A stretch of 64,000 nucleotides of DNA from Rhodamnia argentea (lineage: Eukaryota; Streptophyta; Magnoliopsida; Myrtales; Myrtaceae). Shown one piece after another: positions 5,381-49,389 of this stretch. Position numbers and translations under genes: made by a program. Each line of letters starts with the position of its first letter. Positions within the stretch are counted from its first letter, which is position 1. Under the pieces are notes generated by a model that made no database searches, was not told the origin of the DNA, and saw only the letters and a list, made by a program, of their open reading frames with translations. Location: contig NC_063151.1 in assembly GCF_020921035.1 (NCBI RefSeq), positions 22,140,934-22,204,933 on the forward strand. The letters are read 5' to 3'.

Positions 5381-5408
5381 AGAACTATGTTTCTGAGTCC
5401 TCTTCGAA

Positions 5409-5873
5409 GCTAACCGGTCCCAAGCATTTAAAGCAATGCTCGAGATTGAGATGGAAGAAAGCCGAAGCAGCATCATTAACATCAATGATGTGTCATATGA
5501 TGTCCTGGAAGCATTTGTCAAATATCTTTACACTGTTGAAGCATGCCTTGATGAACAAATGGCTTGGAATTTTCTAGTGTTGGCAGAAAAGTGGCAAGTG
5601 AAGCGATATTGTGAGAAGTTTATAATGTCCAAATTAAACTGGGACAACTCGATCTCGTACTGCGCCTTTGCGCACCAGCAAGACGCAAAGGTTCTTCTTG
5701 AGGCTGCCTTGTCATTAATCGTGGACAACATGTTAGAAATCGAAAAACATGCCGAATGTCCAAACTTTTATGAATCTTAGCCTCGCCTTGCAATGGAGAT
5801 TCACCGGGCATATGTTGCAAAGTGGACAATCATTGCAGTGCGCGAGGATACTTCTAACCAACGCTTGGGTGAA
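5409..5873 (+). pseudogene. BTB/POZ gene relic: second exon only
   Basis: Second-exon copy of the local BTB family, matching 11053-11514 in order: AFKAMLEIEMEESRSS, the YLYTVEACLDEQMA core, then SKLNWDNS and AFAHQQDAKVLLEAALSLI. Several faults mark it as dead. No first exon is found upstream; the AG acceptor seen before other copies has become AA, giving GAAGCTAACC where intact copies have CAGGCTAACC. Four residues are missing before RYCEKF. An in-frame stop follows CPNFYES, after which homology continues (PRLAMEIHRAYVAKW) to about 5873. It is a relic of a host gene rather than an alternative isoform. Confidence 0.8.
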
Positions 5874-7470: not shown

Positions 7471-8199
7471 TTCAGTAAGTGATACCATTTCGTTTTGCGC
7501 AAGCGATACTTTTCAACTGAATATCTATATATTTTATTGCTTGCCTTTTCTATTTTATTGTATTTATAAACCAAATAGAGGTTTCAGAGTAGTTGTGAGA
7601 TATTACTTTCCATAATTTTAATTACATTCTTGGTCGTTTTGCACGTGGAGAGACGAAAAGATTTCTGACTTAGATATATTTCATTCACTCCCTCACTTGT
7701 CTTTTATTGCACTTTTGTCTCGGAAGTTGATAGGATTTGGCAGAAAAAGAGCGTATCGGCGCTAAAAAGTTGTATACGGCGCTCGATTTAATATAAAAAA
7801 TTTCTACCGGATTGCCAAATTGGAGACAAAATCATCACTTTAGGGCCTTCGACGAGAAAATCGAGTCAAAATTAATAAGTGGCATTTTGAATTAAATTCT
7901 TAGTAATTTAAAAAAAAAAATTAAGTCCACTTAGACTTTTAAACTTAAAAAAAATAAAATTAGATTTAAAAAATGAAATTAACTATTTTTTAAAAAATAA
8001 ATTGAAAAGTTAACTTAAATATTTAACAGAAAAAACTTAAAAAAAAAAAAACAGGCTAAACTTAAAAGAAATTTTATAAAAAAAACACAAAATTTAAGTA
8101 ATTCGAATGAAATTTTTGACACTAAAATAAAATAAGTCGTACATAGCTTTTGAGACTTGTCTCCCGGATTTGGCAAGCAAATTAGCTCTCTTTCAGCAA
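7471..8199 (+). promoter_or_regulatory. Upstream region of BTB copy 2
   Basis: AT-rich DNA without a gene leading to the first exon at 8200. Long A runs fill 7905-8090. The last 30 bp before the start codon are shared with the other BTB copies (CTCTCTTTCAGCAA here), so they are probably 5' UTR. I see no certain TATA box. Confidence 0.3.
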
Positions 8200-11100
8200 A
8201 TGCAGCGACCCTGCAAGGAGGAGACCGATTCCATGCGTTGCACATCCTGCAAGGAGGAGTGCGTCACGCTCTATGCCGGCGCCTGCAAGCGGTGCTCCGA
8301 GGAGGCCAGCGAGACCAAGGAAGAGCTCAAGCGAGAGGTCGAGATTTTGAAGGCCAAAGTCGCCTTCTTGACTCTCTGGTCTCCGAACGGCCACCGCGAC
8401 CCTGGCCCCGGCTTCACCGACGTCGTCTTGGTCGCCGATGACGGTCCCAATGGAGGCCCGTCTATGCCGGTGCCGGCTCACAGGACCATTCTGGTGAACA
8501 TCGGCTTTTGCTTCGTTCACTGATATCCTTGCTGGTTTTGCTTTGATTTAAATTTTGAGTTTTTCTTAGTTTTTGCTCTTATCTCCATTTAAATTTTGGG
8601 TATTTCTTTGATTTTGCTCCAGTCTCCGTTTAAATTTTGGGTTTTTTCTTGTTTTGTGCTCTAATCCCCGCTTGAATTTGGGAACTTCAGAACAGGCGCG
8701 AGGTCTAGTCACAGTGATTGAGCTTCGATTAGTTTGTAGTTAATTTTTGGGTGAGTTCCAATGCTCTGTTCCTTGCTCCGAGTTCAAATTGCGGGCGTGT
8801 CTGATATGGTGGTGATATTTTGTGTGATCGATGGTAGATAAGTGGTCAATTACATCACGAACAAATTTTAGAATAATTCTTGGTGAAAGTGGGGAAGATA
8901 AGATGCGGGACCACGGTCTTTATGAGTTCTCTCAGTCATTGGACGACGAAGGCGTGACAAACCATTGTATCCTGAATCTTTGTTCGATTGTCTTAATTTC
9001 TGCAAAGTTAACGTGCTTGACTGTGAAATAATGCCGAGGAAGGAAGAGAAGATACTCATGTGGGAGAGCTTATAGTGGATATAGATGGTCTTAAAACGGG
9101 GTTGGTCAGATTGTTATGAAATTCAGTTGTCTGGGTCGAGCTATTAAGGTTTCTCAGATCTTTCATTTTAGTTGGGGCAGAGAGGAGTTGTAAGAGAGGG
9201 AAAAGAGCAATGCTCGTAGAGGATTTCTCATGGTAGTTTGTGTTGATAGATTTAAGTAAGGGGAACCTATGGTGAATTTGGTTGGACTTTTAAGAATTTT
9301 TTTTTTAAGGTGTTCTTGAGAATTTGGTAACATGGGATGATGTACTCACATAGTGGTACCTATGGCTTACTAGTCGACAGCGATCACTCTTTGCCCTCGC
9401 CACTCGGAAGCCGTGACAGGGTGGTAGCTTCAGTCTGAAAGCAAAGAGTGCCCCAAAAGTGATATTACTTGAGGATAATGAGTTAGGGCTTGCATGATTA
9501 AATGCTTCTAATGCCCCAGAAGAAGTTTACACCACCCCTTTAACTAGCTAGCCATCTTGAACTTTCATGCTGTCATATCCTTGAAGAACGGTACTTATAT
9601 CATTAATGGCTGAATGAAATCCTCTGGCTATCTCCTGCCCATCAGTTAAGCCAGCCTTCATATTTCTTGTGCGGGAGGATATCAATTAGAAAGCAGCCAC
9701 TGTAGAATTGGCAAGCATGTACTGTAACAAACATCCTTTCGTGAATGACTACGGTTGCCGCAAGATACTCTTCAGAGATGCTTGGACAGGCATCGCATAA
9801 ATGATTCACATAATTACTATCCTCATTATTGTGTACTGGAGCAAAGCTAACCACCAATTAAAATGAAACTGCAATTATTCATCTTAGATTAATGCCTTTT
9901 GTCCACTTCAAATGTTATATAGCGGGTCACTACTAAACTAGTTCTGTTAGATGACTTCTTTCCTCCTCAAACAAGTCTTGACTAAATCACCAGGAGTTCT
10001 AAACATATGCATTCAATGATCATTCTTTTTGGTGACCCCGGCCTCAAAAAAGGATGTTGGACCTCTTCCTTCTTTCTTTTCTGGCCTCAATAATTGCTTG
10101 GAGTGGTCTTGGTCTTCTCTCTTCTTTGCCTAAACTTAACTTTCTTACGTTTGCTTGAGTTTTCAAGATGTAATGCCAAAGTTAGCGGAGTAAATAGTTG
10201 TTAAGCGTGTATAATCAGCATTATCAACTCACTGTGATTTTCTGCGACTCTTTATCTAGAAACTTGCTGTAAAATTGTGCCGCTGTACATGCTTGTGGCT
10301 GAACATACATGGTGAAAATGGGGGTTGCATCTACATTTGGAATTGCATTCTGCTAAAGATGCACCTACATAATACATTTCCACTGACAGATTATGTCTTT
10401 TACTTCGTAGTTTGATCTTAAGCTCTCTCTTAGGCTGGTCTTGGAATTTTTATAGTAGCTTTCATCTATTCTGGCATTATAAGTACATATTTGTTTGCTT
10501 GGACTGGATTTCTAAATTGGTGAGATTCTCAATTTTATTTTGCAAGTGTTCCTTTTATTTGCCTGGAATGTGGCTTTGTTGAGTTGAGTGAAATGTTAAT
10601 CTCTATTTGAAGTGACGTGTTTAGTGAATTTTTTTTTTTTGGTTGGAATGTGTTTAGTGATTGAGTTGCTGGATACTTCATTCATTATGACTATTGCGCA
10701 ATATTTGGTGTAAACGGTGCTTGAGTTCGGATATGCATTTTGCCTGCTGCTATGTGCATTTCATTGGAGTTATCAACTCAAACATTGCAAAAGCTTGAGT
10801 TATGGTCTTTCGCTTGGCGTAGGGGACTTATGAGCACAACATAGTTTGCATAATTTTTGTAGTTGATAACGTTAGCAAGGACACATTCAAAAGCTTTGAT
10901 TGCATACTCATGATATTCATTTCAGGAGTTTCTTCAATTTAGCAAAATCCGACTCATATTGATAAGATGCATAAACATTTCCTATCAAACTACTGAACGC
11001 TGCAAGAATTGCATTTCCTAGTGCTCTTAATTTATTTATTTTTAATTATCAGGCTAGCCAGTCCCCAGTATTTAAAGCAATGCTCGAGGATGAGATGAAA

Positions 11101-11514
11101 GAAAGCCGAAACTGCACCATCAAGATAAGTGATGTGTCATACGATGCTGTCCGAGCATTTGTTGGCTATCTTTATGCCGAAGCGTGCCTCGATGAGCAAA
11201 TGGTTTGTGAGCTTCTGGTATCAGCCGAAAAGTACCAAGTGGAGTACCTCAAAGCTTATTGTGAGAAGTTCTTGGTGTCCAAATTGAACTGGGACAACTC
11301 AATCATATACTATGCATTTGCGCACTTGCACAACGCGAAGCTTCTTCTTGAGGCTGCCGTGTCCTTAATTGTGGACAACTTGGATGAACTCAGAAATCAT
11401 CAAGAATATTCGGAACTTGTTGAAAAGGACCCACGCCTTGTGGTGGAGTTATACGAAGCATGTCTTGCAAAGCAGAAAAAAAATGCAGCAGCTAAGGATA
11501 CTTCTGCGAAGTAA
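8200..11514 (+). CDS. BTB/POZ domain protein (At4g08455-like), copy 2
   Basis: Two-exon gene: exon 1 is 8200-8493, with a GTGAAC donor at 8494, and exon 2 is 11053-11514 after a CAG acceptor; the junction is in phase 0. The protein has 251 residues. It opens MQRPCKEETDS, then a paired-cysteine motif, MRCTSCKEECVTLYAGACKR (C-x2-C, with two more cysteines 12 and 15 further on), then a short coiled coil (SEEASETKEELKREVEILKA). The BTB fold follows, split by the intron after HRTIL, and includes SPVFKAMLEDEM, AFVGYLYAEACLDEQM and SKLNWDNS. The C-terminal part is helical. BTB proteins of this kind dimerise and many recruit targets to cullin-3 ligases; that role is inferred. It converges on copy 3 (15422-12742) as half of an inverted duplication. 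No stop or frameshift is seen. Confidence 0.82.
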
Positions 11515-12741: not shown

Positions 12742-15422
12742 CTAAAATTTCCCCAAGAATGCTCTGTATATCTTCAGCATAAGACGTGGGTCCTTGTTGA
12801 CGAATTCCCAGTAGTCTTGATGTTTCTGGAGTTCATATATGTTGTCCAAGATTAAGCACAAGGCAGCCTCAAGAAGAACCTTCGCATTTTGCTGGTGCAC
12901 AAAGGCATAATATTTTATCGAGTTGTCCCAGTTTAGTTTGGATACCAAGATCATCTCACAATAAGCTTTGAGGTGCACCACCTGGTGCTTTTCGGCCAAT
13001 ACTAGAAGTTCACAAGCCATTTGCTCATCGAGCCACGCTTCAGCATAAAGATAGTCGACAAATGCTCGGAGGGCATCACATGACATGTCGCTCATCTTAA
13101 TGGTGCCACTTTGGCTTTCTTCCATCTCATTCTCGAGCATTGCTTTAAATACTGTGGACCGGCTAGCCTGATTGTAAAAAGAAAATTAAAGAGGACTCAC
13201 AAACGCAATTCTTGCATTGTGAAAACTCAGATATTTATGCATCATATCTGTAATCTGTAATATGAATCAGAGTTTGCTAAATTGAAGGGACTCCAGATAT
13301 GAATATTATGAGCATGCAAGCAAAGCTTCTGAAACATATCCTTGCTATCTTTATCAATTACAAAAACTATAAAAACTAGAAGACCCCTATGTGAAGGGGA
13401 AGACCATAACTCAAGCTTGTGTAATGTTTTGAGTTGATACTCCAATGAAATGCGCATGGCAGCAGGCAAAATGCATATCCCGTGGCTCAAGCATCAGAGT
13501 CATGATGCAGAAGTTCATAGAGTTGATAATGCTGATTATAGACGATTCAACAACTATTTACACTGCTAATTTCAGCATTACATCCTGAAAACGGTGAACA
13601 TAAGAAAGTTAAGTTTACGTGAAGAAGAGAGAAGACCAAGACCACTCCAAGCAATTATTGAGGCCAGAAAAGAAAGAAGGAAGAGGTCCAACATCCTTTT
13701 TTGAGGCCGGATCACCAAAAAGATCGATCATTGGATGCATATGTTGAGAGCTCTTGGTGATTTAGTCAAGACTTGTTTGAGGAGGAAAGAAGTGATCTAA
13801 CAGAACTAGTTTGGCAGTGACCCGCTATATAAAATTTAAAGTGGACAAAAGGCATAACTCTAATGTGAATAATTGCAGTTTGATTTTAATTGGTTAGCTT
13901 TGATCTAGGACACAACAATGAGGATAGTAATTATGTAAATCATTTATGCAATCCCTATCTAAGCATCTCTGAAGAGTATCTGGCGGCAAATGTAGTCATT
14001 TACTAAAGGAAGTTTGTTACATTACATGGTTGGCTGCCTCCTAATTGACATCCTCATGCACAAGAAATGTGAAGTCTGGCTTAGCTTGACGAGCAGGAGA
14101 TAGCTAGAGGATTTCATTCAGCCAATAATAATATAAGTAGCTTTCTTCAAGAATATGACAGCATGAAAGTTCAAGATGGCAAGCTAGTTAAAGGGGTTGT
14201 GTGGACCTCCTATGGGGCATCGGAAGCATTTAATCATGCAAACCCTAACTCATTATCCGCAAGCAATATCATTTTTGGGGCACTCTTTGCTTTCAAACTG
14301 AAGCTACCACCCTGTCATGAACTTCCAAGTGGCGAGGGCAAAAAGTGATCGCCGTATACTAGTAAGCCATAGGTACCATTGTGTGAGCACCTCCTATGTT
14401 ACCAAATTCTCATGAACACATAAAAGTCATCTTAAAAGTCCAACTGCAAATACACCGTAGGTTTCCCTTACTTAAATCTATCAACACAAACTACCATGAG
14501 AAATCCTCTACGAGCATTGCTCTTTTCCCTCTCTTACAACTCCTCTCTGCCTCAACTAAAATGAAAGATCTGAGAAACCTCAATAGCTCGACCCAGATAA
14601 CTGAATTTCATAACAATCTGACCAACCCCGTTTTAAGACCATCTATATCCACCGTAAGCTCTCCCAATCGAGTATCTTGTCTTCCTTTTTCACAGTCTAG
14701 CACGTCAACTTTGCAGAAATTAGGACTATCAAACAAAGATTCAGCATACAATGGTTTGTCGCACCTTCATTGAATGACCGGTAGAAGTCGTAAAGATCGA
14801 GTTCCCGCATCTTATCTTCCCCACTCTCACCAAGAATAATTCTAAAATTACTTCGTGACGTAATTGACCACTTATTTGCCATTGATCACACAACTAATCA
14901 CCACCCTACGAGACCCGCCCGCTATTGGAACTTGGAGCAAGGAACAGAGCATACGAACCCATCCATTCAAATAGAGATCAGAGCAAAGACAAAGAAAATC
15001 GCAAAAATTTAAATGGAGATCAGAGCAAAGACAAGGAAAAACCCAAAATATCGATCGAAGAAAAATCAGCAATGATATTAATAAACTGAGCAAGAGCTGA
15101 TGCTCACCAGAATAGCCCTGTGAGCCGGCACCGGCATAGATGGGTCTCCGTTGGGACCGTCCTTGGCGGCGACCAAGACGACGTCGGTGAACCCGGGGCC
15201 ATGGGAGCAACCACTGAGGTGGCAGTGGCGGCCGGTTGGAGACCAGAAACTCAAGAAAGCGACTTTGGCCTTTAAATTCTCGACCTCTCGCTTGAGCTCT
15301 TCCTCAGTCTCGCTGACCTCCTCGGAGCACCGCTTGCACGTGCCGGCATCGAGCGTGACGCACTCCTCTTTGCAGGATGTGCACCGCATGGAATCGGTCT
15401 CCTCCTTGCAGGGTCGCCGCAT
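12742..15422 (-). CDS. BTB/POZ domain protein (At4g08455-like), copy 3
   Basis: Minus-strand two-exon gene: exon 1 is 15422-15108, with a GTGAGC donor, and exon 2 is 13167-12742 after a CAG acceptor, phase 0. It gives about 246 residues. The start MRRPCKEETDS matches copy 2. The cysteine motif (MRCTSCKEECVTLDAGTCKR), the coiled coil (EVSETEEELKREVENLKA) and the BTB core (TVFKAMLENEMEESQSG, AFVDYLYAEAWLDEQMA) are present. The conserved EACLDEQM reads EAWLDEQM here and in copy 4, and the C-terminus is shortened to KIYRAFLGKF. Exons, intron and flanks mirror copy 2, and the two genes converge. The frame is open, but the altered tail leaves function uncertain. Confidence 0.75.
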
Positions 15423-15499: not shown

Positions 15500-16665
15500 A
15501 AAAATAAAATTTAAAGAAGGGCATGAAATGTATTTTGTTTCAAGAGCTTGAATTGCCATTCTCATTTTTAAAAAGTACTTTCGTCATTTTATTTTGGGAA
15601 AAATCCAAAAAAGGGCCCGAGTCTTCAGATTTTCTCCAATAAGGGCCCCAAATGAATATTGTTTCAAAAAAAAGACCCGAAGTCCTCATATTTTCTCAAA
15701 TAAGACCTCCAAGTGAACACTGTTTCAAATAAGGGCTTGAAATGACCATAAAATTTCAAAAAAGAGCATGATTTAAGGGCATTTTAGTATTTTCACTTAT
15801 TTAATTTTTTATTATTCTTATTGTTATATGTTTTCTCATCCAAAAAAAAAAAAAAAAAAGAAGGGAAAGTGGACCTTTACAAGCGGGAGGGGCGACCCTC
15901 CCGCTTGTGGCCACCGCCCCACCGCCGGAGGGCGGTAGGCGGGGCGGCAAAGCCTCGGCGGGGTCGCCGGTGCCTCGGCTAGGGCCGGCAACCCGGCCAA
16001 CCGGAGGCGAGGGCCTTTGGCCCTCGCCAAAATCGAGAGAGGGTTGGGCCTTCTCCCGGATCCGGGTGAGGGCCGGTGGTCCCCGCCCAGATCCGGGATC
16101 ACCGGCCATCACCCTATCATCGGTGGGGGTCGCCTAGTCAAGGCGACTCCAACCCAGCCCCCGGCGACACCTGGTGATCTCCGATCCGGGCGGGGATCGC
16201 CGACCCTCACCCGCATCCGGGAGAGGGCTCGACCCTCCAGACTGTGGATGGGTTTTTTTTTTTTTTTAATCGGGAAAAAGAAAAAAATGAATAAAAAAAT
16301 TAAAATGTGAAATGACGAAAGCGCCCTTCAGGCCGGACCTTTTTTTAAAATATTATGATCACTTCGGGCCCTTAATTGAAACATATTATGTCACTTTGAG
16401 TCCTTATTTGAAACATAGTTCACTTGGGGCCCTTATTTGAGAAAATCGAGGACTTCAGGGCCCTTTTTTGGATTTTCCCAAAAAAAAAAAGAGGAAAAAG
16501 AAGGAAAAAAAATCAAAATAAGAAATGACTAAAATGTCCACGATCAAGTCTTTTTTGAAATAAGGAGGATATTTCGGACACTTATTTAAAATAAAGTCTA
16601 CTGCAGATCCTTATTTGAGAAAATAAAAATATTTCATGCTCTTGAAATTTTTTCTAAAAAATAAT
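15500..16665. repeat. Older family C element interrupted by a newer one
   Basis: The DNA on either side of the complete element at 15596-16479 also looks like family C: the left part (about 15500-15595) has TTTGTTTCAAGAGCTTGAA and the right part (about 16490-16665) has the reciprocal CTTATTTGAGAAAATAAAA. The simplest reading is one element nested in an older relative. The outer ends are eroded, so its limits are approximate. Confidence 0.4.
15596..16479. mobile_element. Inverted-repeat element, family C, complete
   Basis: An 884-bp element with long inverted ends: the left starts GGGAAAAATCCAAAAAAGGG and the right ends CCCTTTTTTGGATTTTCCC. Subterminal phrases of the CCTTATTTGAAACA type are repeated several times in both arms. 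The centre (about 15880-16245) is very GC-rich and produces several overlapping open frames with no recognisable protein, which I treat as composition artefacts. It is probably a non-autonomous DNA transposon; no clear target duplication was found. Confidence 0.65.
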
Positions 16666-16770
16666 TTTGGATAAATTTGTCATAAATGTAACAGTTTGAG
16701 ATTTTTCATGGTATTAACCTTAAAATAATGAAAAGTAATCACTTGCAACTCTGAAACCTCTATTTGGATG

Positions 16771-22599: not shown

Positions 22600-22850
22600 A
22601 ACCGACGTCCACTTTAGTGATTTTAGATTAAAATTGATTGGACTGACTCAATTATATAAATGCAAAAAATCTTAGGACTAAATTGAAATCGATGCAAAAG
22701 ATTTAAGACTCAATTGGCACCAATAAAAGGTTTAGGATTGAATTGACATCAATGCAAAAGACTTATGACTAAATTGACACTAAAAAAAAGTTCGGGACTG
22801 AATTGGCATCAATACAATAGGTTTGTGATTTTTTTTACACTTTCCCCGAT
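22600..22850. repeat. Family A fragment
   Basis: Repeated phrases of about 35-40 bp, such as TTTAGGATTGAATTGACATC and GACTAAATTGACAC, are typical of a family A arm, ending in a CACTTTCCCC terminus near 22848. Only one arm is present. Confidence 0.5.
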
Positions 22851-23072: not shown

Positions 23073-23211
23073 TTAATATAGGGTTAATATCACAAAAAAT
23101 TTCTTATTGGTGTACTTATAATAAATTTATCCCAAATATTTTTTTTACTACGAAAAATTCCAAAGTGGTACACTTATTATAAATTTACCTTAAACTATTT
23201 TTTTGACCATC

Positions 23212-23396
23212 AACAATCCTAAACTGGGGGTGCGATCATACCAGCACTAATGCATCGGATCCCATCAGAACTCCGAAGTTAAGAGTGCTTGGGCGAGAGT
23301 AGTACTAGGATGGGTGACCTCCTGGGAAATCGTCGTGTTGCGCCTCTCATTTTCGTTTTCCTCACCAAAAAAAAAAAAAAAACAATCCTAAACTGG
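23212..23396 (+). mobile_element. 5S rRNA retroinsertion with poly(A) and 16-bp target duplication
   Basis: The direct repeat AACAATCCTAAACTGG lies at 23212-23227 and again at 23381-23396. Between the copies are a full-length 5S rRNA sequence starting at the first base after the repeat (23228), about 19 further bases (CATTTTCGTTTTCCTCACC) and a run of 16 A (23367-23382; the last two overlap the repeat). This is the pattern of target-primed reverse transcription by LINE machinery. The extra bases include two TTTT runs, normally pol III stops, so the copied RNA seems to have read through them. It lies inside a family B MITE. Confidence 0.85.
23228..23347 (+). rRNA. 5S rRNA sequence, isolated retrocopy
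   Basis: The 120 bases run from GGGTGCGATCATACCAGCAC to GTCGTGTTGCGCCTCT, matching the plant 5S rRNA throughout with only a few substitutions (for example GTTAAGAGTGC where plants usually have GTTAAGCGTGC, and GGGAAATCGTC for the usual GGGAAGTCCTC). The internal promoter region is largely kept, so transcription by pol III is possible. However, it is a single copy inside a transposon, with a poly(A) tail and target duplication, not part of a 5S array, so it is most probably a retropseudogene. Confidence 0.88.
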
Positions 23397-23832
23397 TATA
23401 CCCGTGATAAATTTACTCCAAACTAATTTTTTTACCATAAAAAATCCTAAACCGGCATACTTATGATAAATTTACCCCAAACTAATTTTTTTTACCATGA
23501 AAAATTTCAAATTGATACATACGTGACAAATTTACCCTTCATTAACTTAAGTTAATATCATGAAAAATTTCAAATTGATACTTCTATGAACAGAGGGTAA
23601 AAATCCTAAAGTGGTACACCCATGAACCGCCACATTCCATCTAACTCTGCAATTTGATGGTTAAATTTAACGAACACTAATGGAAGGTAAATTTGTCACA
23701 TGTGTACCAATTTGAGGTAAATTTTTCATGAGTGTACCAATTTGATGTTTTTTGTGGTTAAAAAATAGTTTGGAATAAATTGTCACAAGTGTACCGGTTT
23801 AGGATTTTTCATGGTATTAATCCTTTAATATA

Positions 23833-25345
23833 TTAATTTTGTAAACTGATCTTAGTACGGCTTTACTCTCCTCCCCCAAGCTTGACAACTCTCAAGCACT
23901 GCCCTTTTGCATTAAAAAAAAAAAAAAGACTTGACGTGGTTGAGGTTTAGCAAATGAATAATTAACTTAATTAGCATCTTAAATGGAGTCGAGAGTGCCA
24001 AATCATATAAACATTTGGCGGAAAAAGTGGGGGAATAAGTGGCATCTCATTCTGCCCATGAAATAGAAAATGTGTGCACCATGTTTTCAAATGTCTGAAC
24101 AAGTTAAACTTTGATTAATTATGGGAGACATGTCTTATGTAAAAGATACTTTTTGATATGTGATAGATGATCTTAACTTATCGATCAATTCAAAACACGA
24201 ACTAAACATCCGTGTGCGGGCTTTAAGACTGGCATGTCGCCCTCAGTTGATAACAAAATTCACAGACGTTGATGACAAGGATCAGAGCAAACAAAATTCA
24301 TCTCGTCAAACGTCTGGTTCTTCGCGCCAAATGTTCAACAAATCACAAAAGATGAAATGGGCGTTAATTTTCCAGGAGACCTCCAAAGAGTTGATTCCGG
24401 AACATTTATCAAAAATGATCCCAAACCTATTCAATTGTGCCAATTCAATCATAAACCTTTTTTTTGCCAATTGACTACTAAACCTTTTAGAATTGTGTCA
24501 ATTCGGTTCATTTGGTCAACCGATCTCGACATGACAAATTTTTAATAATATTTTATTTATATTTTTAATACTTTTTCTTTGTCTTTTTTTTTTTGCTTTT
24601 GTTTTTGTTAGGGCCGGACACTTCTGCCGACCCTTGCCCATTGGCCGACAAGGGCTATGACACCAAAAAAAAAAAGGACAAAAAAATTATCAAAAGAATA
24701 ATTAATAATTCAAAAATTATTAAAATAGTATTATCACCACATCAGTATCGGCTAGCTAAATGGATTGACTTGGCACAATTGTAAAATTTAGGACTAAATA
24801 AGCCAAAAAATTAAAATTGAATTGATACAATTACAATAGGTTTAGAAATTTTTTGATAATTTTTCCAAAGAATTATAATTAAACAGGTGAAATGTATTAT
24901 CTATCTCGACTTTTTTTAATATCCTTGGACGCTACTCACATCAAAGTTCAATGACCAAATAAACTTTTGGGTGGGTTGGTTGTCAGCAGGAACAACTAAG
25001 GTTGAATAAACTGATTGAGAGCGAAGTCAAAATTTACCGGTAAGTTTCCAAAAACTTAAATTGCAGTATACCCTATAGCAAAGTTTGATAAATGTAAAAA
25101 CACTAAATCACAGTATAGACGAGTTTCATGACCGATGGCAGCATACATAGTTTGTCTCTAGAAAAACAAAAAGAATGTCAGAAACTGTAAAAGCGATAAC
25201 TGCATCCATTAGACATTCATTAAATAAGATCATGCTGTCAGGACATAGCATGCGCAATTTGCTTCGATAAAAATTCACTCTTAAAGCTGAAAATACCAGT
25301 CAGCTGCTAATTAAGAAAAAGGCAATGATATCTATCAACAATCCA
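23833..25345 (+). repeat. BTB 3'-flank module, copy R4
   Basis: Copy of the duplicated flank, from TTAATTTTGTAAACTGATCTTAG to ATCTATCAACAATCCAGG. In copies R5 and R6 the corresponding end leads straight into a BTB second exon (compare 29410 and 35935), but here a LINE fragment follows. A family A element interrupts the module at 24409-24864. Small open frames here have no recognisable product. Confidence 0.6.
24403..24864. mobile_element. Inverted-repeat MITE, family A
   Basis: Left end GGAACATTTATCAAAAATG and right end TTTTTTGATAATTTTTCC are inverted repeats. Both arms carry the family A CCTAAACCTATT and CAATTGACTACTAAACC phrases, and the core (24600-24660) is GC-rich. It interrupts flank R4: the other copies read continuously across this point (compare 35400-35425). 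The target duplication is not clear. Confidence 0.6.
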
Positions 25346-25349
25346 GGAA

Positions 25350-27285
25350 GAAAATTAATCTGAGAGTGGCCCGTTGTTGACTACAAAGCTTACAGGTATC
25401 TTCTTCCATAAGTTCGATTTCTCTTGAATAAGTTCGATTTCGTTGGTAATGCATTCGGACATATTTTCCATAAGAAAAGCTTAATTTTTGGAGTGGTGTT
25501 GGCGCTCCAAATCTTTTTCCAGAGTCCCCAAGGGGTCTGATAGGAGGATGAAGCCGAGGATCGGCACTGCTTTTCGTTTTCCTCCCTGCATCTGTTATAT
25601 CCACTTTTCACTGTGTATACCCCAGACTTTATGTTTGTCCTGACTAGTTTGTCTTCCTGTTCTTGTGTATTCAATGGAGTCGCCGGAATTTCATTTTTCA
25701 GTTCTTCGTCAAACAGTTCATTCAGAGCTGGTATCTTCCAAGTTGAGTTATCCCTATTAATCAGTTCCGCCACTCTCTGAGGCTCATCTCTGTTAGCAGG
25801 GCTGCCAATCACTCATTTGGAAATCCACTTATCTTCTCTAATTCTGATGTTTTCCCTGTTTCCGACCGACCACATGACGGAAGCCTTAATAGTTTCTCTG
25901 CCTATAAGAAGGCTTTGCCGACACCAAGATGGTTGAGTTCCCTCACTAGTTCTCCAAAAGTCACAGTTCGGGAAGTAGAGTCCTTTCAAGACCTGGCACC
26001 ATAATGAGGAAGGGCCCTGTGCCAACCGCCAAGCCTGCTTTCCCAGCATTGCTCTATTGAAAGTTACCAAATCTCTAAGGCCTAATCCGCCATTATCCTT
26101 TCTGAGTTTAAGAAATTCTCATTTCCTCCAATGCAACCCCTTTCTATTCTCGCTAATTTTTCACCAAAACTCAGCAACTTTTTGTTCATTACTTCGGCAA
26201 ATGGACATGAGGATCTTGAAAATTGACATTGCATATTGTGGTAGTGCTTCTTGCACCACTGCTTTTACAAGAATTTCTTTTCCAGCCTTTGACATTAAAC
26301 GTTTCTTCCAACCTTCCAACTTCATGTTAACTCGTGACAAAATCCAAGCGAACATTTGTTTCTTGGACTCACCCCAATCCGAAGGTATCCCCAAATATTT
26401 ACCTGTTTTAACAATTTCTGGGACACGAAGTTCTGTTAGCATGTTGTGCTTGAGTCTTTGAGGACACTCTTTGCTAAAGAAGATGCCCGACTTGTTCAGA
26501 TTTATGGTCTGGCCGGATGCGTAGCAATATTGGTTCAAAACCTCTGGCACGTTTTGACATTCCTTTATGGTCCCATCAAGGAAGAAAATAGAGTTGTCTG
26601 CGAACATTAAGTGTGACAAAGTAGGACATGATCTCTTTAGTTATATTCCTTTTATGTCTCCCTGCTCCGGAGCCTTTCTCATCATACAGGATAGAACATT
26701 AACCACTAAGATGAAAAGATATGGGAAAGAAGGTCACCTTGACAAAGACCTCGAGAGGGCTGGAAAAAGGGGATTGGTTCTCCATTAAATTTTACGCTAA
26801 AAGAGACAGTAGTTACATTGCATTACCTATTGGACCAACTTAGCACTAAAACCCATATTTAGCAAACATGATTCCAAGAAATCCCACTCCACTCAATCGT
26901 ATGCTTTTTGCATGTCCAACTTGAGTACAGCTTGGAACTTTGTTTTCGTTTTCGGATTCTGAGTTGGTGAAGCACTTCCTGGACAATCTTGATATTATCC
27001 TAGATTTGTCTTCCACTAACAAATGCGCTTTGCTCCACTGAGATCAAATCTTGTAGGCATGGTTTCAGTCCATTTGCTAGGATCTTTGATATTATTTTGT
27101 ATGCAAAGTTGCACAAGCTGATTGGAGCTTGGGGATGAGAGTGATATGTGTTTTATTCAACCTCGGGTCAAGCATCCCTGAATTAAAGAAATTCTGAGAT
27201 GAAATGCTTGAGAACCTCCCAATTGTGATGGTAGAACAGCCCATTCAAGCCGTCCGGTCCTGGTGCTTTGGTAGAACCCAATTGG
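25350..27285 (-). mobile_element. L1-type LINE fragment: reverse transcriptase and zf-RVT
   Basis: On the minus strand, from 27285 downward, the sequence shows reverse-transcriptase blocks in order: GSTKAPGPDGLN near 27280, SGRQI near 27010, LKLDMQKAYD near 26930, then FADNS (the FADD-box position) near 26605, GKYLGIP, EGWKKRLMSKAGKEIL, and LGKQAWRL near 26040. A zf-RVT-like tail follows, with GVYTVKSGY near 25620 and CKLCSQQRATL near 25380. It encoded the polymerase of a non-LTR retrotransposon. It is broken: the frame changes near 26070 and 25810, a stop follows QKAYD, and Asn replaces the second catalytic Asp. The endonuclease, ORF1 and poly(A) tail are absent, so both ends are truncated. 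It occupies the place where a BTB second exon stands in sister modules. Confidence 0.85.
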
Positions 27286-29453: not shown

Positions 29454-32400
29454 TCAAAATTCCATCACTTGGGAACGAAAAAGCGAAAACTCACCATCTG
29501 ATTTGTTGTTCGGATACAGCTTTGTAATAAATGCTTGGTATATCTCCGTCACAAGGCGTGAGTCCTTTTTAACGAGCTCTGGATATTTAGGATGTTCTGG
29601 GAATTTATACATGTTGTCCATCATTAAGCACAAGGCTGCCTCAAGGAGATGCTTTGCGTTATGCTGGTGCGCAAAGGCATACTTTATGATCGAGTTATTC
29701 CAGTTTAATTTGGATACCAAGATCATCTCACAATATGCTTTGAGGTGCACCACCTGGTACTTTTCGGCCAATACTAGAAGCTCACAAGCCATTTGCTCAT
29801 CGAGCCATGCTTCAACAGAAAGATAGTCGACAAATGCTCGGAGGGCATCACACGACATGTCACTTATCTTAATGGTGCCGCTTTGGCTTTCTTCCATCTC
29901 ATTCTCGAGCATTGCTTTAAATACTGGGGACCGGCTAACCTGATTGTAAATAGAATATCAAAGAGGACTCAACAACGCAATTCTTGCAGTGTGAAAACCC
30001 GGTAATTCGATATGAGATGTTTATGCATGACATCTATGTGAGTCGGAGTTTGCTATATTGAAGGAACTCCGGATATCAATATTATGAGCATGCAAGCAAA
30101 GCATCTGAAACATGTCCTTGCTATCGTTATCAATTACAAACATTATGAAAACTATGTGCGCTCATAAGTCCCCTTATGCCAAGGGGAAGACCAAAACTCA
30201 AGCTTGTGTAATGTTTTGAGTTGATACTCCAATAAAATGTACATGGCAGCAGGCAAAATGCATATCCGGTGGCTCAGCATTCGCTTAATTCAAATCTTGT
30301 GCAAGAGTCATGATGCATGAACTATCTAGAGACTCAATCACTAAACATGTCAATTCACATAGAGATTAACAGTCCACTCAACTCACAAAGCCACATTCCA
30401 GGCAAATAATAGGAACACTTGCAAAATAAAGTTGACAATCTCTTGGATTTAGAAATCCAGTCCAAGCAAACAAATACGTACTTCTAATGCCTGAACAGAT
30501 AAAAGCTAATAAAAAAGTGTCAAGATCAACCTAAGAGAGAGTTTAACATCAGACAGACATAATCTGTTAGTGGAAATGTCTTATATAGGTGCATCTTTAG
30601 CAGCATGGAATTCCAAAAGCAAATGCAACCCCTGTCATCACCATGTATATACGGCCACAAACATGCACAGTGGCAGAACTTTACAGCAAGTCTCTAGATG
30701 AAGAGTCACAGAAGTTCATATGAGTTGATAATGCTGATTATGTACGCTCAACAACTATTTAATCCACCTAAACTTCGGCATCACATCTTCAAAACTCAAG
30801 TAAACTTAAGTTTAAGCTCAAGAAGAGAGAAGACCAAGACCACTCCAAGTAATTATTGAGGCCAGAAGCGAAAGAAGAAAGCGGTCTAACATCCTTTTCT
30901 TAAGGCTGCATCACCGAAAGATTCATCATCGAATGGTTATGTTTAGAGTTCATGGAATGGTAATTTAATCAGGACTTGTCTGAGGCGGAAAGAAGCGATC
31001 TAACAGAACTTATTTGGTAGCAATCTGCTTGACAAAACTAAAGTGGACAAAAGTGCATAAATCTGAGATGAATCACCGTTGTTTCTTTTTTATTAGGTTA
31101 GCTTTTCTCCAGTACACAACAATTAGGATAGTCATAGTGTGAATCATTAATGCGACCCCACACGCTATCCAAGCATCTCCGAAGAGAATCTTGCGGCAAG
31201 TGTGGTCATTTATGACAGGAAGTGTGTTATATTACATCGTAGCCAATTCTAGAGTGGCTGTCTTCTACTTGATATCCTTGTGCACAAGAAAATATGAAGG
31301 CTTTTGCTAATTATGTAAATGACTCAAGAGCAGGAGATAGCTAGAGGACTCCATTCAGCTATAAATTATACTCGTATGACAGCATGAAAGTTCAAGATGC
31401 CAAGCTAGTTAAAGGTGTCGTGCAGACCTCCTCTGAGGCATTGGAAGAACTTAATCATGCAAGCCCTAACTCATTATCATCAAGTAATATTACCTTTGGG
31501 GGCACTCTTTGCTTTCAGACTGAAACTACCACTCTGTCACGAACTTCAAGTGGCAAGGCAAAGAGTTATTGCTGTCAACTAGAAAGCCACAGGTACCACT
31601 GTCTTAGCACACCCATGTCAATGTCGAGTTACCGAATTCTTAGGAACACATAAAACTCATCTTAAAAGTCCAAGTGCCAATTCTCGGTAGGTCTCCCTTC
31701 CTTAAATCTATCTGCACAAACTACCATTACAATGGTCTTTTATCAGTAGTAGTTGTTCAAAGGAATGCCCATAAGGGCCAAACGAAGATAAAACTTCTAA
31801 AGAAATCCTCTATGAGCACTACTCTTTCACTCTCTTATGACTCCTATCTGCCTCAACTAAAATGAAAGATCTGAGAAACCTTAATAGCTCGACCCAGACA
31901 ACTGAATTTCATAACACTCTGACCAACCCCGTTTTCAACCATCTATATCCACTATAAGCTCTCCCAAAAGAGTATCTTTCTTTCCATTTCTAGCTTCATT
32001 TGGGCATCAGTTCACAGACAAGCCTCAACTTTACATAAATCAAGACTACCGAACAAAGGTTCAGCACACACAGGTCATCCACACCTACGTCGTCCAATAA
32101 CTGAAAGAAAACTCATAAAGGAAGTGTTACCGTATCTAATCTATCCCTTCAAGAAGCATTATTCAAAAATTTCTCCATGACCAGACACTCCCACTATTAG
32201 AACTTGGCGCAAGGAACAGAACATTTGAACCCACCCACGAATTAGCTACAAAACTAATCGAAGGTTAATCGTCTCTTCTGAAATTCCCAAATTCAATCGG
32301 AGATCAGAGCAAAAATAAAGGAAAAAAAAAAAGCCAAAATTCAAATCAAAGCAAAACCAGCAACTAAATCAATGAAAGCAATGCTCACCAGAATGGACCT

Positions 32401-32859: not shown

Positions 32860-33000
32860 TAAACATAGTTAATGCCGGGAAAAATCTTAAACTGATATAT
32901 ATATGTTATAAATATATTCCAAACTATGCTTTTAATTACAAAAATCCTAAGTTGATACAATTTGATAAATTTACATGCGTACAAATTTAAGATTTTTGGT
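32860..33000. repeat. Family B fragment
   Basis: TTCCAAACTATGC, ATTACAAAAATCCTAAGTTG and TTTAAGATTTTTGGTG are degenerate family B phrases. It separates BTB copy 4 from the degenerate exon 1 at 33118. Confidence 0.4.
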
Positions 33001-33117
33001 GATCAAATCAACCAACATAGCACATCTTAATCATCTCAAATTGTCAAAGCAAATCAACTGAAAAAATTCACTAGGATCATCCTCTGAGTGAGGAACAAAT
33101 CAACTAGAAAAACTCAC

Positions 33118-38214: not shown

Positions 38215-38735
38215 CCTACATAATCTGATTCCTGCTCTGTCCTAACGAACGTGTTAATCAACATTAACATCCATTGAACGAACCCATTAAAGACGCGAGC
38301 GAGACCCCGTGAAGCACATCAAAACTGTGGGAACGAGCACGACAGAATTTACTGGGACTAGTTCTAGACGTTAGACCCGTGGCTTGGATCACGTTTCTCA
38401 GCGTCAGACGCGGGGCGAAGAAGGGCCAGTCTTCTTTCCAAGAATCATCTCGGAAGATGGATGGTGCGATTAATCAAACTTAGAGAATAATAATAGTACG
38501 TATTAACAACGGCGTGCGAAGACCCAAGACAGATATTAACGTTGCTATTATCTTCTCCATCTGAAGTCAATAACAAACTCCTGATCAAGAAAAAATATCA
38601 ATTCCGCTTTCCTAATGTCTTTCTTCCACGAAGGTTCTTCCCAACTTCCATGCAACCCTAAACGCCACAAGTTTCTTCAAAGTCATGCTACGCACGTACG
38701 TAAAACATCCGTACAATGTAAAGCTCCTTCCAGTC

Positions 38736-38741
38736 TATAAA
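38736..38741 (+). promoter_or_regulatory. TATA box of CML copy 2
   Basis: TATAAA 103 bp before the start codon, in the same GTCTATAAATTCAAATTATC context as in copy 1, within the duplicated promoter 38215-38838. Confidence 0.55.
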
Positions 38742-38838
38742 TTCAAATTATCCTCCTCCCACCAGCGCCATCAGCATTTGCACATATTTCTTCATTAGTT
38801 TCCTCAATCCCACACGTACATATCCAACATTGCATATC

Positions 38839-39321
38839 ATGCCTCGCCTCGGAACCGGAGACTTGCGTCGGATTTTCGAGAACCTCGACAAGAACGGCGA
38901 TGGCCAGGTGAGCCTCGAGGAGCTCAATTGGCTGCTCGAGAAAATCAGTGTCCATCACAGCGTGGACGAGCTCGAATTGTTTATAGGGAAACCAAGCCTC
39001 GACTTTGACGAGTTCTTGCACTTTTATGTGTCTATATCGTGGGAAGGAACCACGGGAAATGGCGGATCAGAATCACCGGAGGGCAACGAAGGAGACGACG
39101 ATCAAGAGACCGACCTTGCCGAGGCGTTCAAAGTGTTTGATCTGAACAACGACGGCTTCATTTCCTGCGACGAGCTCCAGAGCGTGCTCTCGAAACTAGG
39201 GTTGTGGAACGAGGGAAGCGGGAGAGACTGCAATAGTATGATTCGCGCGTATGATACTGATAGCGATGGGAGGCTCGATTTTGAGGAATTCAAGAGCATG
39301 ATGCTGATTACATTTGCTTGA
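38839..39321 (+). CDS. Calmodulin-like calcium-binding protein (CML44-like), copy 2
   Basis: Intronless gene for a 160-residue EF-hand protein, the paralogue of the gene at 598. Loops at residues 17-28 (DKNGDGQVSLEE), 101-112 (DLNNDGFISCDE) and 139-150 (DTDSDGRLDFEE) are canonical, with Gly at loop position 6 in each. The second hand is again degenerate (LDFDEFLHFYVSI). The start is the ATG at 38839 (MPRLGTGDLRR). Differences from copy 1 cluster in the linker and second hand, while the frame is fully kept, so both copies appear to be under constraint. The likely role is a calcium sensor; partners cannot be read from the sequence. Confidence 0.9.
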   Translation: MPRLGTGDLRRIFENLDKNGDGQVSLEELNWLLEKISVHHSVDELELFIGKPSLDFDEFLHFYVSISWEGTTGNGGSESPEGNEGDDDQETDLAEAFKVFDLNNDGFISCDELQSVLSKLGLWNEGSGRDCNSMIRAYDTDSDGRLDFEEFKSMMLITFA

Positions 39322-41924: not shown

Positions 41925-44900
41925 CTATGACTTTGCAGAAGCATCCTTAGGTGCTGCAGTGTTTTCCTGCTTTGCAAGACATGCTTCTAATATCTCCACC
42001 ACAAGGCTGGGGTGCTTTTCAACGAGTTCCGCATATTCTTGACGTTTTCTGAGTTTATCCATATTGTCCATGATTAATGACAACGAGGCCTCCAGGAGAA
42101 GTTTCGCATTGTGCTGGTGCGCAAAGGCATAGTTTATGATCGAGTTGTCCCAATTCAACTTGGACACCAAGAACTTCTCACAATAAGCTTTGAGGTGCTT
42201 AACCTGGTACTTTTCAGCCAATACTAGCAGCTCACAAGCCATTTGTTCATCGACGCATGCTTCGGCAGAGTAAAAATAGTTGACAAATGCACGGAGGGCA
42301 TCATAGGACACGTCACTTATCTTAATGGTCCCACTTCGGCTTTCTTCCATCTCATTCTCAAGCATTGCTTTAAACACTGGGGACCGGTTAGCCTGATTGT
42401 AAGTACAAAATTGAAGAGCATTCAAAAACGCAGTTTTTGCAGTGTGAGAAAACTCAATAGTATGATAGGAGATGTTTGTGCATCATATCAATATCAGTCG
42501 CAGTTTTCTAAATCGAAGAAACACCTGATATGAATTTTACGAGCTTGAGCAAAGCTTCTTAACCATGTCCTTGCTAACGTCATCAATTATTAAACTTATG
42601 AGAACTATGCTGCGCTAAAAGATTCCTATGCTATGCAAGAAAACTTCATACTCAAGCTTATGTAATTTTCGAGTTGATGACTCCAAATGGAATTTGCATT
42701 GTAGGAGGCAAAATGCATATCAGGTGGATCAAGAAATGCTTAGATCAAATATTGTCAAAGAGAGTAGTAATTACTGAAGTATCCAGCAACTCAACTACCA
42801 ATTATTCCACTCAACTCAACTATGCCTTATTCCAAGCAAAAAAAAAAAAAAAAAGGAATCAATCATGATCTGCATAAAAGAAATTGAGAATATCTATGAC
42901 TTAGATATCTGGCCAACCAAACAAATATGGTAGTTCTAATGCCTGAATAGATGAAAGCTAATTCAGAAACTTGAAGATCAACCTAAGAGAGATTAATATT
43001 AGACTAGGAAGTAAAAGAAATAACAGGTGCATCTTTACCAGCGTGCAGTCCCAAAAGTAAATGCAACCCCCATTATCACCATATAAAATCCACTCAGAAG
43101 AATGTAGAGTGCAACAGCAAGCCGCTAAATAAAGAGTCGCAGAAATTCTTATTGACTTGACAATGCTGATTATATATGCTCGACGACTATTTAATCCACC
43201 TAAACTTTGGCAATACATCTTGAAAACTAGAGTAAATAAAGAAGGTTAAGTTTAGGTTACTGAAGAGAGAAGACCAAAACCAATCCAAGCAATTATTGAG
43301 GCCAGAAACAAAAGAAGAAAGCGGCCCAACATGATATTGCAAGGCCAGATCACGGTTAATATTGATTGTTGAATGCATATGTTTAATAACCTCATGAACA
43401 GAACTCATTTTGTTAGCTTTTCCCCAGTACACGAAAATTAGGATTGTACTTATTTGAATCATTCATTTGATCCCACAATCTCTCCATGCATCTCTGAAGA
43501 ATATTTTGTGGCAAAGCATAATCATCTACTGCAGGAAGTTTGTTACATTACATGATTGCCAAGTCCAGAGTGGCTGCCTTCTACTTGATATTCTCGTGCA
43601 CAAGAAAATACGAAATTGCCTTTTGGTAATCAAATAATTGACTAAATCTCACGAGCAGGACATAGCTAGAGGACTTTATTCAGCCATAAATACTACAAGT
43701 ACTGTTCTTTAAGGATATGACAGCATGAAAGTTCAAGATGGCAGCAGAAGCATTTAATTAATTAAGCCCTAACTCATTATCCTCAAGTAATCTCACTTTT
43801 GGGGGCACTCTTTGCTTCCAGACTGAAACTACCACTCTAACATAGACTCCAAGTAAAAAGGGCAAAAAGTCACCGCTGTCAACTTGTAAGCCACAGGTAC
43901 CACTGTGTTAGCACACCCATGCCAATGTCGAGGTACCGAATTCTCATGAACACAAAAAAGTCATCTTAGAAGTCCAACTGTGAATTCTCTGTAGGTCTCC
44001 CTCCTTAAACCTGCCTGCATGAACTACCATTGCAATGATCTTTCTCAGTAGCAATTGTTCAAAGGAATTGCCATAAGGGTCAAACCAAGATAAAACTTCT
44101 AAAGAAATCCTCTATGAGCATTACTCTTTCACTCTATTATAACTCCTCTCTGCCTCGACTAAAATGAGAAATCTGAGAAACCTTAATAGCTCAACCGAGA
44201 CAACTGAATTTCATAACACTCTGACCAACCCCATTTCAAACTATCCATAGCCACTAGAAGCTCTCCAAAAGAGTATCTTTCCTTCCATTTCTCGCTTCAT
44301 TCGGGCATCATTTCACAGTCAAGCGCCTAAACTTTTCTTAAATCAAGACTATCGAACAAAGGTCCGCACCTTCATTGTCCAATTACTGAAAGAAAACTCA
44401 CAAAGGAAGTGTTCCCGTATCTAATCTACCCCTTCGCAAAAAATTATTATCCCAAAATTTCTCCATGACGCAATTGACAACCTGGCACTTACCATCGAGA
44501 CACAATTTATCACCACCCTATGAGACGCCCGTAATTAGAGCTTGGAGCAAGGAACGGAACATTTGAACCCTCCCCAAACTGACTACAAACTACCACAGTG
44601 GACTAAACCCTCTCGTTCCTTCTGAAATTTCCCAAACTCAAACTGAGATCAGAGCGAAAACAAAGAAAAACCTAAAATTCAAATCAAACAAAAATCAGCG
44701 ACTATATATCTATGAACCAGACAAGAGCGATGCTCACCAGAATGGCCTTGTGAGCCGGTACCGGCATAGACGGGCCTCCAAAGAGACCGTCCTCCGCGGC
44801 GACCAAGACGACGTCAGTGAACCCAGGTCCATGGGAGCGACCACTGAGGTCATGGCGGTGGTCGGTCGGAGACCAGAACCTCAAGAAGTTGACCTTGGCC

Positions 44901-45845: not shown

Positions 45846-46272
45846 TCAAAATAGGGCTAGCACCATGAAAACCTTCAAACTGATACATATGTGATAAATT
45901 TTTTCAAAATTAATTTTTTGAACATTAAAAACTCAAACTTGTATACCTGTGATAAATTTAGCCCAAACTAATTTTTTCACTATCAAAAACTTAAATTAGT
46001 ATACATGTGATAAATTTATCCTTTGTTCATTTCCGTTAAATTGGATTAGTACCACCAAAAACTCCAAGCTGGTAGATCTATGACGGATGGTGAGTAAAAG
46101 CACTCGCTAACGACTACATGTCGCCAACTCAGTAATTTGATGGTCTAACAGACGGTAAGTTTGTTACGGTTGTACCATTTTGAAATTTTTGGTGGTCAAA
46201 AAATTAGTTTAGACTAAATTTGTCGCATGTATATCGGTTCGAGATTTTTCATGAAATTAACCCTTAAAAATA
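45846..46272. mobile_element. Inverted-repeat MITE, family B
   Basis: The element at 45854-46264 begins GGGCTAGCACCATGAAAAC and ends TTTTTCATGAAATTAACCCT, inverted repeats of each other. It is flanked by TCAAAATA and TAAAAATA (7 of 8 identical). At 411 bp it is near the size of the element at 23081 without its insertion. No transposase. Confidence 0.7.
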
Positions 46273-46488
46273 TGTTGAAGATAGAGATACTTGCATCAAT
46301 TGATAATCTATAATTTATCTTGAATTTTTTATGTTTAGATTAGAATGAAATGAAATACATAGGATTATTTTTGTTAAAAACAACTTAGAATAGTAATCTT
46401 CTTATTTGCCTTGCATTTTTCATTTTCCTAACAAGATCTTGTACATAATAGAGTCATAACATGATTCGATGTTGTAACCCAGTTTTAT

Positions 46489-48768: not shown

Positions 48769-49389
48769 GAGTGAGAGAGAGAGAGGAAAATCCAGTTGAA
48801 GTTGCAGAGACCCCCCTCACCAAAAAAACTGAAAAGCGAAGTACCAGTTACGAACTTTCTCCTCCGAAAGATTCAACCCCCGTTCGCTCGAGGACGCGAA
48901 GGTGAGAAAGGTCTCTCTCTTTTTCAAGTTCCTGTGCTCGTCAACTGCTCTGTTCGTTTCGTTTCGTTTCGTTCGTGGCTGGTGTTGTGTTGCCGAGACA
49001 AATTGTGGGGTTGTGTGGTTTCGTCGATACATGCATTGCTTCGTGCGTCGCTTTCTGCCAAGATTTTGAGTCTGTAACTCGAATCCACGCGTTTCGTGAA
49101 ATGGGTCTTCCTTTGGATTGGACGAGAAGCTACAGTTGCGGCGAGCTTGGCATGGGATTGCGAAATATGAATTTTCATTTTCTACTCGGAAGTCTTCGTT
49201 TTTTTGGGAGCTGGGAAGAGCAATATGGTGAATTCACCTGCTGAATTTTCGTGGTATTGATGAAATTAGGATTTTTCCTGCGAAAACGTGTAAATGCTTT
49301 AGCTTTTGCTTTGGAAGTTTGAAGCTTGAGGTTTTCTCTTGAGCCCTAATCTGACGCTTAGGGTTTGGAGTTCTGGATTCAGGTTTCCG

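Follow-up and report, generated by a model that had tools for sequence, protein, structure and literature searches.

A probable 5S rRNA retropseudogene with a 3' extension, an A tail and a target-site duplication inside a MITE-like element of Rhodamnia argentea

Introduction

As far as the accessible text of the relevant papers goes, SINE3 families are described from animals and fungi (PMC10886601, PMC5063351, PMC3272025), and SINE3-like 5S sequences in plants receive a passing mention, with the Cassandra paper given as source, in the available part of a study of Asteraceae 5S genes (PMC3095306). The same study proposed that 5S moved into 35S units at the base of Asteroideae, perhaps mediated by a retrotransposon. 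For mammals, duplications of 7–17 bp were reported in 20 of 27 5S/LINE-1 chimeras (PMC13174262, accessible portion). Truncated human 5S or U2 RNAs gave no sign of adenylation before retroposition in the sections available of another study (PMC5322556), in which the tailless copies from plants number only eight, all U2-derived and from maize, and no plant 5S copy is named. Retrocopies of mRNAs that are L1-like and carry A tails are described from Arabidopsis and cassava; in the accessible text, the two cleanest have 15- and 13-bp duplications, and the others have diverged duplications or none (PMC4838847). Relaxed, poly(A)-based template recognition has been argued for plant L1 lineages (PMC3747384, in part). 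The titles and abstract openings of the literature searched, with most subscription journals outside its reach, contained no description of a full-length, A-tailed 5S retrocopy from a plant.

Here we analyze a candidate for such a copy in a 64-kb window (the whole stretch of Rhodamnia argentea DNA studied, with positions counted from its first base) and compare its anatomy to these systems. A preliminary description had read the locus as a retroposed 5S rRNA with a read-through tail, poly(A) and a target duplication, an interpretation that is supported by the boundaries of the copy, the A16 tract and the restored unit register of the host element.

Results

Based on the Rfam covariance model RF00001, a full-length 5S rRNA copy occupies positions 23228–23346 on the plus strand (model positions 1–120 of 120 aligned; 105.5 bits, E-value 4.1e-22 in a search of the window). 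This is the sole Rfam match at the gathering score in the 64-kb window, and a tRNA scan of the window returned no genes. The copy starts at mature position 1, where a pol III start is expected, and the base before it is the last base of the left 16-bp repeat; the earlier claim of a complete 5S starting right after this repeat is borne out by the RF00001 match and the repeat end, and its coordinates for the copy and the repeats were correct. Between the two 16-bp repeats lie 153 nt, made up of the 119-nt 5S, a 20-nt tail and 14 A. The 3' extension (TCATTTTCGTTTTCCTCACC; 23347–23366, plus strand), read as 5S 3' flank, does contain the two TTTT runs previously noted, and its length is 20 nt rather than the ~19 given before. 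It is followed by an A16 tract (23367–23382, plus strand; identified in the sequence and by an A-run scan), in which 14 A are followed by two that are common to the run and the right repeat, such that the succession of 16 A and a 16-bp repeat stands as described. The copy shows the transcript ends of a retropseudogene, from 5S position 1 to beyond the mature 3' end, together with its A tail (A16) and a flanking duplication of 16 bp, against a range of about 7–20 bp for L1-like retroposition.

In the Rfam structure, all 34 aligned consensus pairs are standard in the copy (G-U counted), and the RNA fold of 5S plus tail has a z-score of -1.3, with 20 of 200 shuffles equally stable, which is uninformative. 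Compared to a plant consensus, 7 of 119 positions differ (C28T, C49A, C57A, G102A, C105G, A115G, and C118T), among which 49A may be a natural variant. Fifteen nucleotides of the copy are identical to a primer in an Elaeagnus 5S rDNA paper; this match and the consensus comparison are the basis for calling the sequence plant. If all seven differences were post-insertional, the probability of zero changes in the 32 duplication bases and 14 A would be ~0.07 (0.10 for six differences); because an unchanged duplication and A-run would be that improbable, the comparison leans weakly towards a source 5S gene that already carried some of the differences. The IE stretch and box C match the plant consensus, while box A departs from it at a single position (C57A). 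Upstream of the copy, the stretch from -30 to -23 is TTTTTTTG, with G at -1. For Asteraceae 5S genes, a TATA is reported ~24–30 bp upstream, along with a C that is conserved at -1 (PMC3095306, available part); upstream of the copy, a TATA-like motif at -28 and C at -1 are both absent. Because box A is changed and these Asteraceae-type signals are missing, the promoter of the copy may be weak.

The 20-nt extension looks like 5S 3' flank transcribed beyond weak terminators, since most species with linked 35S-5S units have a pair of oligo-dT terminators behind the 5S gene, according to the accessible text of the Asteraceae study (PMC3095306). With up to three mismatches allowed, the tail has no occurrence in the 64-kb window besides 23347–23366. 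A pattern of the tail gave one 19-nt match in viral contigs, with ~180 and 60 flanking bases free of 5S by eye, which we took as chance. An exact plant 5S pattern had no matches in viral contigs and none in genome contigs, with the same result (0 and 0) for a looser pattern, and a search of 5S plus tail against plasmids gave no match.

Two further matches to the tail, both post hoc, were found within the window, each with 0 of 100 shuffles (of the window in the first case) matching. One consists of 14 exact bases (TTTTCGTTTTCCTC) common to the tail and the antisense strand of a LINE ORF at 25571–25584. The other, CCTCACCAAAAAAA (CCTCACC+A7, the tail/A-run junction), recurs at 48815–48828, where the surrounding 80 bases contain no 5S, in line with the single Rfam match of the window. 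When a match could start from any part of the 5S and its tail (139 nt together), the longest match was at least 14 nt in 9 of 300 shuffles, a control that leaves out the A-run of the 48815–48828 match. The LINE match is antisense and lies mid-ORF; it is probably due to chance, and derivation of the tail from the neighboring LINE is unlikely.

The copy is inserted in the left arm of a MITE-like element at 23081–23823, which we delimited using inverted repeats, tandem units and a unit alignment, with ends (GGGTTAATA.../...TATTAATCC) placed by eye. Its inverted arms are composed of AT-rich units of ~59–63 bp each, the best of 17 inverted pairs being 71 nt long and 79% complementary, and a candidate 9-bp repeat flanks the element (8/9 match by eye). 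The placement of the 5S insert inside a MITE in the preliminary description agrees with this MITE-like host, whose inverted arms and ~60-bp units surround the insert. Relatives of the ~60-bp units that are free of 5S were seen at 45862–46280, 16640–16740 and 32860–33010, and a different AT-rich array with a ~29–31/60-bp period lies next to the element at 22645–22824, with an apparently related stretch at 24762–24854 (68% over 101 nt).

To either side of the insert, the 16-bp sequence AACAATCCTAAACTGG is present on the plus strand at 23212–23227 (left) and 23381–23396 (right), with a 16/16 match between the copies. When the insert and one repeat copy were excised in silico, a motif scan of the joined sequence (at least 10 of 16 positions) gave motif starts at 23095, 23153, 23212, 23271, 23331 and 23394 in joined coordinates, with spacings of 58, 59, 59, 60 and 63 bp. 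The same scan gave an extra row that is a one-base shift of the second match, and a 15/16 motif copy that lies out of register, 36 bp past the last one, at the arm end. Because excision restores the unit register, one AACAATCCTAAACTGG copy is native and the other is a target-site duplication.

The strong evidence for the duplication is this restored register, and the identity of the repeats alone is weak evidence, because exact 16-mer pairs are no rarity here (at distances of 60–1000 bp the window has 15 after merging, the AACAATCCTAAACTGG pair among them) and the 5S-free units 23496–23518 and 23559–23581, adjacent in the same element, have 23 exact bases in common. Using an alignment of 17 unit rows, hand-picked from BLAST matches and including the joined empty site as one row, we found that the motif in the other 16 rows matches the flanking repeat at 9–14 of 16 positions, and that only 2 of 136 unit pairs are identical over the motif, with the joined unit in neither. 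When both 400-bp flanks were shuffled 2000 times with dinucleotides preserved, a procedure that breaks up the host element's own unit repetition, the boundary match did not exceed 6 nt. The window contains 36 A-runs of at least 10 nt (18 per strand), and that of the 5S copy is the only one with an adjoining direct repeat of at least 12 nt that recurs upstream within 1.5 kb; when the repeat length was lowered to at least 9 nt, such repeats were found for five A-runs on the plus strand and one on the minus strand.

Two kilobases from the 5S copy, the minus-strand ORFs 25390–25812 and 26161–26640 resemble a broken LINE. In a Pfam scan covering 8 of the 38 listed ORFs, these ORFs matched zf-RVT (3.6e-9) and RVT_1 (0.0024, below its cut-off), and the remnant is probably of L1 type. 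It indicates only the past presence of such elements in the genome; it is at most a candidate helper, and its broken state counts against that role.

Elsewhere in the window, ORFs that are alike by eye occur on both strands at 5397–5780, 10975–11514, 12742–13185, 29454–29957 and 41925–42482, and the sole one of these scanned (ORF 10975–11511) contains a BTB domain (Pfam, 7.5e-14). A cysteine-containing ORF recurs at 8131, 15078, 32341 and 44702, and together with the ORFs above it gives the impression of a gene cluster in which some members may be broken. Two EF-hand-like ORFs (559–1080 and 38722–39321) are also alike by eye, the first matching EF-hand_1 (Pfam, 7.4e-22). The domains found among the scanned ORFs (EF-hand, BTB, and PHD) are eukaryotic and not plant-specific.

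Discussion

The anatomy of the locus and its boundaries can be read directly from the DNA, and the duplication is established by register. For the source transcript, its adenylation and the agency of a LINE, we infer the following history, which very probably accounts for the locus: a 5S transcript made by pol III, extended at its 3' end and oligoadenylated, was copied by L1-like target-primed reverse transcription. On a 5S rRNA gene, pol III would start at +1, pass two weak TTTT signals and stop ~20 nt past the mature 3' end. This read-through RNA would then be oligoadenylated, as in incompletely matured yeast 5S, and captured by an L1-type LINE through its reverse transcriptase/endonuclease. 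A bottom-strand nick in an AT-rich unit of the MITE-like element (5'-GATTGTT/GATGG-3') would have allowed priming on the A tail, followed by copying to the RNA 5' end, and a staggered cleavage of the second strand would have produced the 16-bp duplication, with a single retropseudogene as the outcome. The top strand of the nick site reads TC/AACA, which by eye is the same as TT/AAAA at 4 of 6 positions and is non-canonical.

Published work offers support for this history in the relaxed poly(A)-based recognition argued for plant L1s (PMC3747384), in the A-tailed plant mRNA retrocopies (PMC4838847) and in yeast. In the accessible text on yeast, 5S RNA with failed 3' maturation receives A tracts at -2 and -3 (~70% of clones) and at +11 (~30%), with averages tabulated at 12–14 A (PMC11115967); the retrocopy extends to +20 with 14–16 A. 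Several observations count against it, among them the non-canonical nick site. The adenylation evidence comes from yeast, truncated human 5S or U2 RNAs gave no sign of it (PMC5322556), and adenylated, 3'-extended 5S in plants was not reported in the literature found, including the available portion of an Arabidopsis exosome paper (PMC3820695). The recurrence of the motif in the host units, including the out-of-register 15/16 copy, also counts against it.

Is the A-run an added tail at all? The source 5S spacer could itself have contained an A-run that primed reverse transcription, with no post-transcriptional adenylation involved. Nothing in the copy tells templated A from added A, and internal priming on A-rich stretches has been argued for mammalian tailless copies (PMC5322556, accessible text). 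An added tail would be expected to stop where this run does, exactly at the target duplication, which is a weak argument because a templated run used for priming would end there too; we consider a templated origin unlikely. The 16-bp repeats might instead be two native units, with an rDNA fragment inserted or recombined at the DNA level between identical MITE units. Adjacent host units can indeed share 23 exact bases and the repeat motif is found again in host units, and the preliminary doubt over native repetition was fair because the units contain versions of the motif. The idea that the repeats are the MITE's own periodicity is correct in that the motif does recur, and fails in that the native unit spacing is complete without a second copy. 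Given in addition that the insert is bounded exactly by 5S +1 on one side and by the last A of a run on the other, DNA-level insertion is very improbable.

Retroposition of an adenylated 5S transcript might also have founded, or come from, an amplified SINE3-like family, with many copies having the same tail and different target repeats, and an active internal promoter. A full-length 5S head, unchanged box C and IE, an A tail and a duplication make up the least that an element of this kind needs. On the other hand, there is one 5S and one tail within 64 kb, two TTTT runs would tend to stop transcripts ahead of the A tail, box A carries C57A, TATA and C(-1) are missing upstream, and the literature search found no title or abstract opening that names a plant 5S SINE. 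SINE3 elements have an unrelated body and a LINE-like 3' end, and here 20 nt alone separate the 5S from the A-run; because a SINE body is missing and the promoter looks weakened, the copy does not belong to SINE3 on structure. The suggestion that it founded a 5S SINE family with a kept promoter finds no support in the window, with its one 5S, one tail and changed box A. We regard an amplified SINE3-like family as distinctly improbable, and the broader proposal that the copy is a visible member or founder of a poly(A)-tailed, 5S-headed SINE family in a flowering plant as quite unlikely. A plant retroelement bearing 5S has been described in the Cassandra type (PMC10853983, PMC10886601, both in part), an LTR retrotransposon with 5S in its LTR, and the insert could be a fragment of one. 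The copy covers 5S from +1 through the mature 3' end with the duplication directly at its 5' end, and there is no second 5S in the window. A comparison of the 1.5-kb flanks gave 19 direct matches, the strongest of which come from the units of the MITE itself; a further flank match (22735–22834 and 24762–24854; 101 nt, 68%, E-value 0.007) lies in AT-rich sequence outside the MITE and is without 5S. Cassandra is excluded by structure, and we hold this origin to be extremely improbable. A tandem 5S array would repeat 5S and spacer, and the 64-kb window has one 5S match alone, which does not fit an array unit.

As a single locus the copy is ordinary, and only the discovery of a family would raise it above modest importance. 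It is a clean case, and suggests that the L1-like machinery of plants can accept 3'-extended, adenylated pol III RNA, and the uptake of adenylated pol III 5S RNA would be a first step toward a 5S-headed SINE. A plant family of this kind could be overlooked because AnnoSINE discards candidates that are near-identical to Rfam RNAs: by default, it drops those matching at 1e-15 (PMC8825457, accessible text), and the copy has an E-value of 4.1e-22 in a search of different size. Copies of this type would be dropped or mistaken for 5S genes, which makes for a blind spot in annotation.

Compared to the described systems, the locus combines familiar features. Like Cassandra TRIM elements, it places 5S in a mobile plant context, whereas the 5S of Cassandra sits in LTRs and no paired LTR is present here. 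SINE3 elements share the 5S head with internal promoter boxes, but here there is no body, and no amplification was seen in the window. The Asteraceae 35S-5S units differ in that no duplicated integration site was found for them in the available part of that study (PMC3095306), whereas one is present here. The plant L1-like mRNA retrocopies (PMC4838847) resemble the copy in their A tail and, for the two cleanest, in a 13–15-bp duplication, with the difference that the template here would be a pol III RNA. Mammalian L1-mediated 5S retropseudogenes (PMC5322556, PMC13174262) likewise consist of retroposed 5S with a target duplication; as characterized in the accessible text, they lack a tail and part of the 3' end, or else are fused to LINE-1, typically in truncated form, whereas the copy here is full-length, 3'-extended and A-tailed. 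Real and well bounded, it adds one more case to a class of event that is already known.
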